This document shows, piece by piece, positions 13,721 through 23,794 of a DNA stretch of 64,000 nucleotides. The stretch is from Natronococcus sp. A-GB7 (lineage in GTDB: Archaea; Halobacteriota; Halobacteria; Halobacteriales; Natrialbaceae): the NCBI RefSeq assembly GCF_029688865.1, contig NZ_JARUKV010000002.1, positions 1 to 64,000 of the forward strand, in the 5' to 3' direction. Every line of letters begins with the position of its first letter. Within the stretch, counting starts at the first letter, position 1. Below the pieces are notes generated by a model. The model saw nothing but the letters and a program-made list of their open reading frames with translations. It was not told the origin of the DNA and did no database searches. The position numbers and the translations under genes are program-made.

Positions 13721-13791
13721 CCGGCTCGCTCTCCGCGACATCGATCGGATCGAACCGACAGGGATTTTGCCCGACCGCTGGATCCGTCCGC

Positions 13792-14556
13792 ATGAACGTC
13801 GACTGGGACGAGATCACCCACGTCACGAAGGTCGATCCGGCGAAATCCCTACCGTCGGATCTCGGCGTCCTCGAGGGAACCGATCTGGTGCTCGTCGGCG
13901 GCTCCGACGACGTCACCGAGTCGAACAGCCTCGAGGCGATCGAACGGGTCGCGGACGTCTTCTCGGAGATCCCGGTCTTTCAGGAGCCGTACAGCTCGAC
14001 GCACGTCTCGCGAGACACCATCGAGGCGGCTGACGCCGTCTCGATCCCCGCCGTCTACAACGGCGATCACGATCACTTCGTCGGCAAGCACGTCGACCTC
14101 TTCACCGAGGTCGGGCAGAAACCGGACGAGCTACTCGGCTCGAGCGTTCCCCTCGTCGGCGACCTGCTCGCCTCGAAGGGGGTCGAGGTGGTCGCAGAAC
14201 TGGCGGGCAAGCTCGTCGGGGAGGGGTACGTCGTGCAACACCTCGAGTCGACGGCCGCGGCGGTTTCGGGCGTCGAGGCGGCCTACAGTCCTGAGGAGGT
14301 CGCTGGCGCGGCCCTCGCGACGGAGACGTTCTACGACTTCCCGATCTTCTACGTCGAGTACTCGGGGACCTACGGCGGCCCTCGTGACGTCGAGGCGGCC
14401 GCCCGGTACGTAGAGGAGACCGCGCTGTTCTACGGCGGCGGGATCGACAGTTCCGAACGGGCGAGCGAGATCCTCGAGGCCGGTGCGGACGCCATCGTCG
14501 TCGGTGACTGCTTCCACGACGATCCGGAGACGTTCCGCGAGACGATCCCGGAGTAG
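13792..14556 (+). CDS. Geranylgeranylglyceryl phosphate synthase family (PcrB-like)
   Basis: The family makes the first ether bond of archaeal lipids from sn-glycerol-1-phosphate and a polyprenyl diphosphate, using a TIM barrel. The 254-residue protein shows the opening VTKVDPAKSL, LVLVGGSDDVTESN, PVFQEPYSST, and the C-terminal phosphate-binding FYGGGIDS and ADAIVVGDCF. It is the haloarchaeal variant sometimes annotated as heptaprenylglyceryl phosphate synthase; most haloarchaea also have a second, more canonical copy. Chain length is not deducible here. Confidence 0.9.
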   Translation: MNVDWDEITHVTKVDPAKSLPSDLGVLEGTDLVLVGGSDDVTESNSLEAIERVADVFSEIPVFQEPYSSTHVSRDTIEAADAVSIPAVYNGDHDHFVGKHVDLFTEVGQKPDELLGSSVPLVGDLLASKGVEVVAELAGKLVGEGYVVQHLESTAAAVSGVEAAYSPEEVAGAALATETFYDFPIFYVEYSGTYGGPRDVEAAARYVEETALFYGGGIDSSERASEILEAGADAIVVGDCFHDDPETFRETIPE

Positions 14557-14674
14557 AGTGGCTCGAGAGCCGGCAGACTACTGTAACGTTTTTGCCCGGT
14601 CTTCGGTAGGTGCGCTATACAGGCCAAGCAGGTAACGAAGTGGCGGTCGGCTTCACTGATAGCTGCCAGAAACG

Positions 14675-14704
14675 GCGTGCTGAATACAGAGCACGAGTTC
14701 AGTA
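14675..14704 (+). repeat. Left inverted repeat of a putative two-gene cassette
   Basis: GCGTGCTGAATACA at 14675-14688 is an exact inverted copy of 17291-17304, and the match continues at 19 of 21 bases. The pair brackets the regulator and FAD oxidase genes. No transposase or target-site duplication is visible. The segment 14557-14766 holds no gene otherwise. Confidence 0.6.
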
Positions 14705-14766
14705 CCGGATCGAAGGTGACTCGGGGCTCCCTCGCTAAGTTCGACGAAGATTGCAGGACGACGGTA

Positions 14767-15675
14767 TCAAGGCGAGTCGAACCGTTCCTCGAGCGGGTCG
14801 GAGTCCGCCTTGACCGATGCGTAGACGCATTCGGCCCACTCGCGAGCGATGGGCGAGTCCGTATCGACGAACACCTGCATCAGGCCCGTGCTCTCCTCGT
14901 AGCCCCCGATCCCGACTCGCTCATCGAAGATGGCGAGCCCGTACGGCAAGTCGTCGCGCGTTCGGAGCGTGAGGTGCCCGCGCTCGATCGCCTCGGTCGC
15001 TTGCGTCGGATAGGTCTCGAAGAGCTTCTCGACGATGTGAGGAAGGTAGATGATCTCGGTGTCTATCCCGTCGAACACCCGCTGGTGGAACTCGCCGAGG
15101 ACTAGCGGTGCCATGTGCGTCGTATTGAACCCGCGGAAGGCCTCCGACTCACTTACGAGCGAAATAAACCGCTCGACCGGCTGGTACGGATCGTCCGGTT
15201 CGGCGACGGTAACGGTCGCATCGACGAACGGTTCGATGACGAACTCCTGATGATCCTCACAGATGATATCCAGCAGCGGCGCCATTCGGTGGACGGTTCG
15301 CACGTTCGCTTCGAACCGGAGTACCTCGTCGGCGACGGCCTCACCCCGCCCGGTTAACTGGAACCGTCCGTCGACCTTCGCGACGAAGCCCTGCTCGTCG
15401 AGCCACTGCGTGAAGCGGTGGCTCGTCGCCCGGGACACGTCGAGGTGCGCCTCGATCTCCCGGCGATCGAGCGGCTCCTCGCGGAGCGCTTCGAGTACCG
15501 GCCCATGTCGAACGATGTCGCCGAGCAGGTCCGTATCGACGCGGTCGCCCGCAGCGTCGAGTCGCTGACCGAGAAACTTCTGGTTGCGCGCGTTCTCGAG
15601 GACCGCCTCCAGAATCGGCGAACCCGGTGGTGGAGGGAAGTCCTTGGAGTCCGGCTCGTCAGTGTGGGGGTCCAT
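14767..15675 (-). CDS. Winged-helix transcription regulator with FilR1-like C-terminal domain
   Basis: This 302-residue protein has an N-terminal winged helix (about residues 50-115, with ALREEPLDRREIEAHLDVSR and SHRFTQWLDEQGF) and a C-terminal alpha/beta domain resembling the archaeal FilR1 (DUF1724) sensor domain. It is divergently transcribed from the FAD oxidase, and the 148-base gap holds an imperfect inverted repeat (CCTCT/AGAGG arms, 15684-15700) near its own start that could be an operator. The pair is enclosed by inverted repeats, so it probably moved as a regulator-enzyme unit and controls that enzyme (inference). Confidence 0.85.
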   Translation of the reverse strand: MDPHTDEPDSKDFPPPPGSPILEAVLENARNQKFLGQRLDAAGDRVDTDLLGDIVRHGPVLEALREEPLDRREIEAHLDVSRATSHRFTQWLDEQGFVAKVDGRFQLTGRGEAVADEVLRFEANVRTVHRMAPLLDIICEDHQEFVIEPFVDATVTVAEPDDPYQPVERFISLVSESEAFRGFNTTHMAPLVLGEFHQRVFDGIDTEIIYLPHIVEKLFETYPTQATEAIERGHLTLRTRDDLPYGLAIFDERVGIGGYEESTGLMQVFVDTDSPIAREWAECVYASVKADSDPLEERFDSP

Positions 15676-15823
15676 GGGAGTCCCCTCTGTTTGAGAGAGG
15701 CTAGCATAGGAGGTAACTCTTCCTCTCGTGAACTGAAACTCGTCTCACGTGCTAAACGGCGTTCACGTCGTCGAACGCTACTTGATAGATGAGGCCAACA
15801 TCCCTGCAATCGTTCGATATTCT

Positions 15824-17224
15824 ATGGCACAGCACGCCGTCGACGACGAACGGGCCGAACAGTTCGAAGCAGGATTCCACGGCGACTTGATTCGTTCCGA
15901 TGATCCCGACTACGACGACGCCCGGGCGGTCTGGAACGGGATGATCGACAAGCGTCCCGACCTCGTTGCGCGGTGTGCGGGTGTTGCGGACGTTATCAGC
16001 GCGGTGAAGTTCGCTCGAGAGAACGATCTTCTCGTGGCGGTGAGGGGCGGCGGGCACAACGTGGCCGGCACGGCTGTCTGTGATGATGGGCTCGTCATCG
16101 ACCTCTCGGAGATGACCGGCGTCAGGGTCGATCCGGAGGCACACACCGCATGGACCCAAGCCGGTGCCACGTGGGCAGATCTCGACCACGAAACACAGGC
16201 ATTCGGGCTAGCGACACCCGGCGGTGTCGTTTCGGATACCGGTGTCGCCGGATTGACGCTCGGTGGTGGAATCGGACACCTGCGTTGCAAGTACGGCCTG
16301 AGTTGTGACAACCTCCGCTCGGTCGAACTGGTCACGGCAGAGGGCGAGTACCTGACGGCCAGCGCCGACGAGAACGCAGACCTGTTTTGGGGGTTGCGCG
16401 GGGGCGGTGGCAACTTCGGTATCGTCACTGGATTCGAGTTCGAGCTTCACCCCGTCGGTCCGGACGTAGCGACCTGTCTCGTGTTTTATTCCGGTGACCG
16501 GCTGATCGAGGTGCTGCGAGCCTACCGGGAGTTTGTTGCGACCGCTTCCGACGAGATCAGCACGCTCGTGTTCGCCGGCGAACTTCCGGAAGAGGAGCTG
16601 TTCTCCGCAGAGTGGATCCACGAACAGAAGTTCGCCATTATGGGCTGTTATGCCGGGCCTGCCGACGAGGGGGAGGCCAAACTGAAGCCCCTACGGGAGT
16701 TCGCTACTCCGATTGCTGATGTCAGCGAAACGATGCCCTACGCCGAGTTCCAGCAACTGCTCGACGAGGACTACCCCGACGGGATGCGGTACTACTGGAA
16801 GTCGCTATACCTCGACGGGCTTTCGGACTCTGCCATCGACCGGATCGAGTACTGGGCCGAGGCAGCGCCCTCGCCGCTGTCAACCGTCGATATCTGGCAG
16901 CTCGGGGGCGCCATCACCGATGTCGAGATCGAGGAAAGTGCCTTCGCCGGGCGCCACGCTCCCTTTCTCCTCGGCGTGGAGGCCAACTGGGAGAATTCAG
17001 AGAACGACGATGCCAACATCGAGTGGGTGCGCGACTGTCTTGACGATATGCGGCAGTTCTCGGACGGTTCGATCTATCTGAACTTCCCGGGATTCCTCGA
17101 GGAGGGCGACGACATGATGCGGACCACGTTCGGCCCCGCATACGAGCGACTGGTCGCGCTCAAGGATGAATACGACCCGGAGAACCTGTTCCGAACGAAC
17201 CAGAACATCGAGCCGAGCGTCTAA
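15824..17224 (+). CDS. FAD-linked oxidase, berberine-bridge-enzyme-like
   Basis: The 466-residue protein has the PP-loop FAD-binding domain: AVRGGGHNVAG, where H78 matches the usual 8-alpha-histidyl FAD site, TLGGGIGHLRCKYGLSCDNL and WGLRGGGGNFGIVTGFEF. It ends in a BBE domain with NLFRTNQNI. Such enzymes oxidise alcohols, sugars or alkaloid-like substrates with oxygen as acceptor. Cysteines in the GHLRCKYGLSC segment might allow a second flavin link, which is uncertain. The ATG at 15824 is preferred over an upstream in-frame start at 15749. Codon use is visibly less GC-biased than neighbours, consistent with recent acquisition. Confidence 0.9.
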   Translation: MAQHAVDDERAEQFEAGFHGDLIRSDDPDYDDARAVWNGMIDKRPDLVARCAGVADVISAVKFARENDLLVAVRGGGHNVAGTAVCDDGLVIDLSEMTGVRVDPEAHTAWTQAGATWADLDHETQAFGLATPGGVVSDTGVAGLTLGGGIGHLRCKYGLSCDNLRSVELVTAEGEYLTASADENADLFWGLRGGGGNFGIVTGFEFELHPVGPDVATCLVFYSGDRLIEVLRAYREFVATASDEISTLVFAGELPEEELFSAEWIHEQKFAIMGCYAGPADEGEAKLKPLREFATPIADVSETMPYAEFQQLLDEDYPDGMRYYWKSLYLDGLSDSAIDRIEYWAEAAPSPLSTVDIWQLGGAITDVEIEESAFAGRHAPFLLGVEANWENSENDDANIEWVRDCLDDMRQFSDGSIYLNFPGFLEEGDDMMRTTFGPAYERLVALKDEYDPENLFRTNQNIEPSV

Positions 17225-17272
17225 GGACTGATCGTTCACTCCTCTTCGAATCGCCAATTCACTTGATCGAGG

Positions 17273-17304
17273 CGTGCTGCATACGCGCTGTGTATTCAGC
17301 ACGC
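17273..17304 (-). repeat. Right inverted repeat and hairpin of the putative cassette
   Basis: The segment pairs with 14675-14695 as an inverted repeat and is itself nearly palindromic: GCGTGCTGCATAC against GTATTCAGCACGC, 13-base arms with one mismatch. It lies 48 bases after the FAD oxidase stop. It may be a cassette end, a terminator, or both. Confidence 0.6.
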
Positions 17305-17663
17305 TTCCTCTAAACTGTCTTCTACGTGATGGAAATAAGTACGAGAGGCTCGCACTCACTGGAACGACGGCGGCTTCGAGAACCGCCAAGTTAGTATACG
17401 GCGCACGAAGTACGCCATTTTCCCGAGCACGCCTTACTCCCGGCTTCGCCGCTCGTCTTTGTCACGGTTCTTGCCTGCGCCTTGCTCGCTCCAAACCGGT
17501 CCACGGCGCGCTCGATCATTCTCGCGAGTTCCAGAGGAGCGAGCGAGGGCTCGAGAAAGCAAGCTCTTCCGGTGGTTGTTGATCGAAGTCCGCACGCGTG
17601 AGCGCTTGCGGCCCCACCGGAATTTTTCGCTTTCTGAGGACGATTTTTGTGGGGGTGAGCGGA

Positions 17664-17761: not shown

Positions 17762-18169
17762 TTAGAACGTGTCTTCGATGATCTCGCCGACCGCGAAGTT
17801 CGACTTGACCTCGGTGATCTCGACCTTGACGCGCTCGCCGACGTCGGCGCCCGGAACGATGATCACGTAGCCTCGCTCGACGCGAGCGATCCCGTCGCCC
17901 TGCTTGCCGATGTCCTCGATCTCGACGTATCGAGTCTCGTTGACGTCGACCGGTGGCTGCGGTTCCGACGGCGCAGTCTTGGGCTGGGACGTCGATGCGG
18001 ACGACTCCTCGGTTGTTTCATCACGAGAGATGAGCGCGACGCGGTAGACGTCACCGGCGTCGATATCGCCGGTTTCGACTTCCTGTCGTGGCACCTCGAT
18101 GACGTACCGATCCTCTTCCTCCGAGACTTCCGTACTGAACAAACACAGCAGTTTTTCAGATATTTCCAC
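17762..18169 (-). CDS. TRAM-domain RNA-binding protein
   Basis: The 135-residue protein has an N-terminal helical segment beginning VEISEKLLCLF, a Ser/Pro-rich linker and a C-terminal TRAM beta-barrel (VEIEDIGKQGDGIARVERGYVIIVPGADVGERV), an RNA-binding domain found in tRNA methylthiolases and archaeal cold-response RNA chaperones. I place the start at GTG 18169, because the family usually begins at EISEKLLCLF; a TTG at 18202 would add 11 residues. It follows the radical SAM gene by about 100 bases on the same strand. It probably acts as an RNA chaperone (inference). Confidence 0.87.
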   Translation of the reverse strand: MEISEKLLCLFSTEVSEEEDRYVIEVPRQEVETGDIDAGDVYRVALISRDETTEESSASTSQPKTAPSEPQPPVDVNETRYVEIEDIGKQGDGIARVERGYVIIVPGADVGERVKVEITEVKSNFAVGEIIEDTF

Positions 18170-18268
18170 AGGTAGACCCTCGACTTTGACTCTGCGTGCC
18201 AACCGTAATAGAACTACCGAACGACTACCGTGGTGTCCTGTGGCACTCGCGGGACGTCACCACACCCG

Positions 18269-23704: not shown

Positions 23705-23731
23705 CCGATGCAGAGCGTGGATTCAGCACGG
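23705..23731 (-). repeat. Cassette-end-like motif near the SnoaL gene
   Basis: GATTCAGCACG here resembles TATTCAGCACGC at the right end of the cassette near 17.3 kb and its inverted copy near 14.7 kb. The flanking CAGAGCG also recalls the left copy. It may be a remnant of the same mobile sequence. Confidence 0.35.
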
Positions 23732-23794
23732 CTGCTGAACCCGCTCGCTAACCGGGGGTTTCGATAGCGTGGAAAAACCGGAGACGGGCCGACG

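Follow-up and report, generated by a model that had tools for sequence, protein, structure and literature searches.

The divergent genes for a FilR1-like regulator and an FAD-linked oxidase, located between a PcrB-family gene and a TRAM-domain gene in the window (the whole stretch of 64,000 nucleotides analysed here, which is contig C12 of G000, a haloarchaeal genome of 4.88 Mb), are likely to be a one-cassette example of a wider haloarchaeal cassette-exchange system in the Natrialbaceae. The pair is enclosed by two unlike end units, designated B and A, and the cargo between these two units at this locus differs among sister genomes. The enzyme involved is unproven, as no recombinase was shown to act on the unit cores; a tyrosine recombinase acting in trans is inferred from the architecture of the sites. 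Within this overall reading, the role of the outer ends of the units and the share of homologous recombination are uncertain. The features of the locus are presented in Table 1.

Table 1. Features of the regulator-oxidase locus in the window
Feature	Position	Strand	Basis
PcrB-family gene, left syntenic flank, outside the cassette	13783..14556	+	Pfam; synteny
Type B end unit: outer end (TIR-like, consensus GCGnTACGTACAGG), body and inner core	14611..14706	+	HMM/CM 81.6 and 76.6 bits; alignment of B copies
Core (dyad) of the B unit, left arm of the inverted repeat	14675..14705	+	Similarity to G005 stops at 14705
Cargo between both cores	14706..17272		GC 61.8%
FilR1-like winged-helix regulator, 302 aa	14767..15675	-	Pfam HVO_A0261_N and FilR1_middle
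FAD-linked oxidase, 466 aa from ATG 15824	15824..17224	+	Pfam FAD_binding_4 and BBE
Type A end unit, facing inward	17272..17366	-	HMM/CM 63.4 and 61.9 bits; alignment of A copies
Core (dyad) of the A unit, right arm of the inverted repeat; 12-bp hairpin fold	17272..17304	-	Similarity to G005 restarts at 17273
TRAM-domain gene, right syntenic flank, outside the cassette	17762..18202	-	Pfam; synteny

A first-pass annotation, made from sequence alone, had described a 14-base exact inverted repeat (19 of 21 positions when extended) around a divergent FilR1-like regulator and FAD oxidase gene, with lower GC and codon use than in the neighbouring DNA and no transposase. All of these claims held. Exact copies of GCGTGCTGAATACA were located at 14675-14688 (+) and 17291-17304 (-), with 19 of 21 positions matching upon extension, and the complete arms (14675-14705 on the plus strand and 17274-17304 on the minus strand) were 31 nt long and 81% complementary. 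Both gene assignments were supported by Pfam, the NCBIfam matches of the oxidase being below cut-off. The GC content of the cargo was lower than that of the 10 kb on either side (67.5% and 68.0%), GC3 was 76-82% in the cargo genes compared with 88-89% in three neighbour genes, and no transposase or recombinase gene was present between the cores. The extent originally given (14675-17304) was too short, as the end units extend outward as far as 14611 and 17366. A 14-base inverted repeat alone is unremarkable in 6 kb, as 19.5% of 200 Markov simulations contained one. The repeat is taken as real because its arms belong to a dispersed family, and not on account of its length alone; with up to two mismatches, the 14-mer was found 50 times in G000, compared with 4 times for the reversed control. 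PADLOC analysis of 10 proteins gave just weak HTH-type matches, in two of them, and a reading of the region as a defence island was rejected.

The PcrB and TRAM flanks were kept in all eight sister genomes examined, and the regulator-oxidase pair was absent from this place in all eight. For G005, similarity to the window stopped and restarted at the exact inner ends of the two cores (Table 1), and an HTH/ABC/MMPL operon of approximately 5.1 kb was present between the units (reconstructed from two contigs joined by a 121-bp overlap of 100% identity, with the genes named from their translations and without a family search). In G008, the B and A units enclosed 742 bp. G003 retained the B unit only, G001 had a gap of approximately 0.3 kb with a B-like remnant (read by eye), and G006 and G007 had another 1.7 kb in common. 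G002 and G004 carried the operon of G005, but inverted and without units, and the breaks in these two genomes were at the outer ends of the units. The cores are thus not the sole boundary, and the outer ends are also breakpoints; G004 presented the same kind of break at a second locus, on contig C76.

The annotation had also proposed a non-autonomous cassette moved by a recombinase encoded elsewhere. This is supported, with the recombinase part only inferred: the many further copies of the ends in the genome, and the absence of the pair from a syntenic place in the sister genomes, favour mobility. Some sister genomes lacked units, and two held other cargo between both units. Occurrence at the same place in distant haloarchaea would have argued against mobility, and no similarity to the window flanks was found beyond 14774-17228 in 32 loci with relatives of the oxidase. 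The cassette reading is further limited, as the recurrent event appears to be replacement of the cargo between two resident sites no less than free jumping of a cassette.

Alignment of the A and B copies revealed two kinds of unit of approximately 95 bp, each composed of an outer end, a body of its own type (A or B) and, on the inner side, a dyad core. The outer motif CG(T/C)TACGTA(C/G)AGG is common to A and B units, in inverted orientation. The core (consensus CGTGCTGAATACAnAGCGCGAATGnnGCACG) has arms of about 12 bp around a 7-bp centre. The units were mostly 70-80% alike. Models of A and B were run over three genomes, and the units scoring approximately 30 bits or more were 28 A and 24 B in G000, 24 A and 21 B in G003, and 30 A and 36 B in G008. 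The pairing test used 163 of the 230 model matches, those under about 30 bits being excluded; one B match of 30.1 bits (G000:C34:141193) was also missing, by oversight. Among 62 pairs of neighbouring units no more than 6 kb apart, 40 joined an A to a B unit with both cores facing inward, compared with a mean of 7.7 and a maximum of 18 in 2000 label shuffles. A and B units thus pair, cores inward, far above chance. The remaining pairs were mostly array members or adjacent elements, with no convergent B-B pair and two convergent A-A pairs. The units bound cargo of either orientation and were found upstream as well as downstream of genes.

The core is a conserved symmetry and not a case of RNA covariation. 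Its helix cells paired in 75% (A) and 83% (B) of cases, compared with 14-54% when slid; compensatory changes in the core were not beyond those of shuffles, and RNAalifold on the mixed unit alignment returned no structure and no pairs. A structured RNA family was rejected on these grounds and for lack of an Rfam match (nothing at E ≤ 1 over 10-24 kb of the window). The outer core arm was conserved at 88-96% and the inner arm at 74-76%. Target-site duplication was not beyond chance in 28 elements, with a mean longest flank repeat of 3.8 compared with 3.5 for shuffled partners.

Cargo between paired units measured about 0.3-5 kb, usually 0.3-4.5 kb, and usually consisted of one or a few ORFs, accessory genes. 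Of 30 proteins searched with Pfam, 27 were cargo proteins from outside the window and the C76 array, the other three being two recombinases and the product of one flanking gene. Histidine kinases, methyltransferases, a phosphate transporter, an ABC component, an SDR, another FAD oxidase, another FilR1-like regulator and unknowns were found among these 27, and none was a tyrosine recombinase. One element among the scanned cargo carried an IS110 transposase. Some loci are arrays, in which cassettes of approximately 1 kb are separated by double cores. The array on contig C76 (L200), flanked by an ABC transporter gene and an FKBP gene, spans about 8.8 kb between a full A and a full B unit. Further cores lie inside it, and several are double (core, approximately 36 bp, core). 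The cores are spaced about 1-1.5 kb apart, with one to two genes per cassette, including those for an HTH protein with DUF2178, a DUF3267 peptidase, a CAAX peptidase, two alpha/beta hydrolases, a choloylglycine-hydrolase relative and an SDR. A second copy of array cassette 5 (95-99%) was observed in G000, split over two contig ends (the end of C47 and the start of C46); a full A unit precedes the core from which it starts. Several cassette genes also occurred at loci without detectable units (L283, L289 and L290).

Cassettes common to different loci break at the cores. Comparison of the C76 array with G002 showed both full units in common and breaks at L200 positions 2330 and 11121, each within a core; G002 has 1.7 kb of different cargo there. 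At the same locus, G005 had 18 bp instead of the array, and G004 had kept the A core and was missing the B unit. At C5 of G000, the flank and the B unit were in common with G007 and the cargo was different. Cassette 4 of the array was also found in G001, between a B unit and a partial A unit, where its left end lies in a B context and not an A context. The cassette-side sequence agreed from the core centre inward and the other side was that of the resident unit, so that the switch from A to B context is inside the core. Ends of similarity were also counted over 69 loci, only those chosen for holding units or shared cassettes, excluding 31 of 216 ends at locus borders. Of the 185 inner HSP ends, 16 had a core no more than 20 bp away at both loci (0.07 expected) and 30 at one locus or both (7.9 expected).

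The regulator-oxidase pair itself is likely a recent entry from another haloarchaeal lineage, because identity is higher outside the genus and the GC content is low. Full-length relatives of the pair within the genus, at least in G003, G006 and G008, were at other places with 76-78% identity, and outside the genus the pair loci of Halorussus and of two further records were 83.5-85.3% identical. The regulator was also matched in 23 of the 32 loci with oxidase relatives, and the window flanks in none. A core was present within 220 bp of the edge of the pair in 7 of these 32 loci from other genomes (8 sites), and none was found at the tested edges in the other 25. The remaining sequence of the 32 loci, 20 times longer, contained 9 core sites, so that core density at the edges was 18-fold higher (p = 4e-7). 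In L009 (Halorussus) and L010 (YIM A00010) the pair had its inner core arm in common with the window, in a different outer context, and in G008 the edge of the pair lay about 0.1 kb from a B core.

Units were also detected on plasmids, with the B unit in 19 plasmid records and the A unit in 13, from genera of the Natrialbaceae and from Halalkalicoccus. In Halostagnicola larsenii (NZ_CP007056.1) one hypothetical gene lies between B at 307309 and A at 308599, and in Halomontanus rarus (NZ_CP135526.1) four genes lie between A at 72949 and B at 77172. Phage records, searched with the B unit only, gave no match.

In the proposed mechanism, a tyrosine recombinase supplied in trans would cut the centre of the core, and cargo would then be inverted, swapped (as in recombinase-mediated cassette exchange) or added. 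A tyrosine-recombinase core site consists of such dyad arms around a short centre. The involvement of this type of enzyme is inferred because of the core layout, the lack of target duplication, the exchange inside the core and the lower conservation of the inner arm. The inner arm would travel with each cassette and the outer arm would stay with the resident unit, and an inner arm less conserved than the outer is what would be expected if it moves with the cargo. The inverted arrangement of the B and A cores does not predict simple excision of a circle, and inversion is expected; a single recombination would invert the cargo, and swapping would be a double exchange. The regulator-oxidase pair would have entered a standing site in the lineage of G000 from another haloarchaeal lineage.

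Tyrosine-recombinase matches (PF00589) numbered 10 in G000 and 38 over G000, G003 and G008. A 417-codon recombinase ORF on C32 starts about 3 bp outside an A unit, and a 232-codon recombinase ORF in G008 overlaps the outer end of a B unit; the recombinases of C49 and C57 had only partial unit ends nearby, and most of the 10 genes in G000 had no unit nearby. Naming the recombinase by its neighbourhood (PF00589 in G000, G003 and G008) was rejected, the neighbours being suggestive and not consistent. A well-conserved XerA-like gene of 438-439 codons, present in G000 and G003, is another candidate, none of the candidates being proven. On C49 (L269, 10.7 kb) and C57 (L270, 6.6 kb), a 211-aa tyrosine recombinase was observed among small ORFs, which on C49 are separated by CGTTACGTA ends and a repeated spacer of approximately 45 bp. 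These contigs may be plasmids with a divergent version of the cassette system. The 211-aa recombinase is also present on small haloarchaeal plasmids, two of which had no units.

Four other explanations were considered. In the first, the elements are non-autonomous transposons that carry passenger genes; the outer ends would be terminal inverted repeats for a transposase in trans, and the cores only subterminal binding sites. This would account for the inverted outer motif common to both unit types, the breaks of G002 and G004 at outer ends and the nesting of elements at L232 and L254. This explanation is unlikely, as target duplication was not above chance in the 28 elements, cargo changed at the cores with the units unmoved (at the window locus, C76 and C5), and one cassette end passed from an A into a B context within a core. 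Also improbable is homologous recombination between incoming DNA and the dispersed repeats, with the units as patches of homology. It is compatible with dispersed similar units, syntenic flanks and replaced cargo, and may underlie the deletion-coupled insertions of Haloquadratum, where unrelated sequences occupy identical positions (PMC3119063). However, units of approximately 95 bp, mostly 70-80% alike, are short for this; a single cassette end was found in both contexts although the bodies of A and B are unlike; and breakpoints coincided with the core of approximately 31 bp.

A function of the hairpins as bidirectional terminators of convergent genes, the inverted repeat being incidental, is suggested by both window units lying between convergent genes, and is very unlikely given the units upstream and downstream of genes, the cargo in either orientation, the pairing of A and B far above shuffles and the lack of a conserved RNA structure. 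Ends of IS200/IS605-type elements or palindrome-associated derivatives (PATEs) would likewise have near-terminal palindromes and no target duplication (PMC3119063), but this source of the repeats was rejected as very improbable, since the two window ends are inverted copies of each other and a unit was present at only 1 of 27 TnpB/Y1 loci of G000, as the outer element, with that TnpB inside an A..B element.

The exchange system proposed here resembles several known systems in part. As in integrons, there are arrays of mostly one-gene accessory cassettes with short palindromic sites between them (as on C76), and cassettes are common to several loci and genomes. Integron sites are in direct orientation along the array, whereas the haloarchaeal cassettes have two unlike sites (A and B) facing each other around each cargo, occur in both orientations, and had no integrase beside the C76 array. 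Six of the 38 tyrosine-recombinase matches from G000, G003 and G008 were scanned with the integron-integrase model integrase_gron, and the best score was 39.7 bits, below the cut-off of 265. The ends of attC are RYYYAAC...GTTRRRY; neither was present, by eye, in the core consensus CGTGCTGAATACAnAGCGCGAATGnnGCACG, and a lone ACCTAAC in the A body was judged not to be attC. Haloarchaea were unmentioned in the text searched of the report on archaeal integrons by Ghaly et al. 2022 (PMC9668308). The core sites of tyrosine recombinases and their inversion systems, reviewed in PMC8371274, likewise have dyad arms of approximately 12 bp around a centre of approximately 7 bp, with inversion expected between inverted sites; the units differ in having two site types, long conserved outer bodies and no demonstrated recombinase. 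MITEs and cargo-bearing non-autonomous transposons are similarly dispersed, with inverted ends and no internal transposase, but here there is no target duplication, cargo is replaced and the ends stay in place.

In the deletion-coupled insertions of Haloquadratum, sister strains likewise have unrelated cargo at the same positions, by an undescribed mechanism, but no conserved sequence was reported there, and the SMRs were treated as insertions into other elements (PMC3119063). SMR-A comprises repeats of approximately 110 bp with inverted ends, no target duplication and unexplained mobilisation (PMC3119063). A relationship of the deletion-coupled insertions or SMR-A to the units is conceivable.

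A bolder reading, for which belief and doubt are evenly balanced, is that of an undescribed archaeal gene-cassette system, a functional counterpart of the integron. Two unlike inverted sites at fixed chromosomal places would form a natural cassette-exchange dock, at which a host or plasmid tyrosine recombinase would swap, invert and string genes or small operons into arrays, and accessory genes would be spread across haloarchaeal genera. If true, this would be a second, independently built gene-cassette platform besides integrons. Haloarchaea exchange genes heavily and carry unrelated genes at identical chromosomal positions, for which no accepted mechanism is known to us. A site pair with differing cargo predicts the places of gene entry, the end sequences and the reaction needed from the enzyme. 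No description of a paired-site system in haloarchaea was found in the literature searched, and the core letters used as a query returned only unrelated work in the part of the results examined.

Further observations were made on the surroundings of the units. In G008, a common promoter-like motif, TTTCTTTAT..GTGAAAC.., was present just outside several B units (L241, L243, L248 and L249). A conserved gene of approximately 440 codons without a Pfam match was found just outside B units at several loci (L217, L218, L220 and, in G002, L298), where DNA conservation extended as far as the B core. Several cores have in their inner half the beginning of a recurring sequence resembling GCCTTGTTTAGACGC (L096, L122, L020, and L200 near 8828), which might be the end of an insertion sequence targeting cores. 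At L232 and L254, the space between the cores of one element was filled almost exactly by a second element, oppositely oriented. Within the window, a weak third A-like core (CCGTGCTGAATCCA, 9.6 bits) was observed at 23717-23740 on the minus strand, in a low-GC stretch at approximately 23.0-23.7 kb, and may represent a decayed element.
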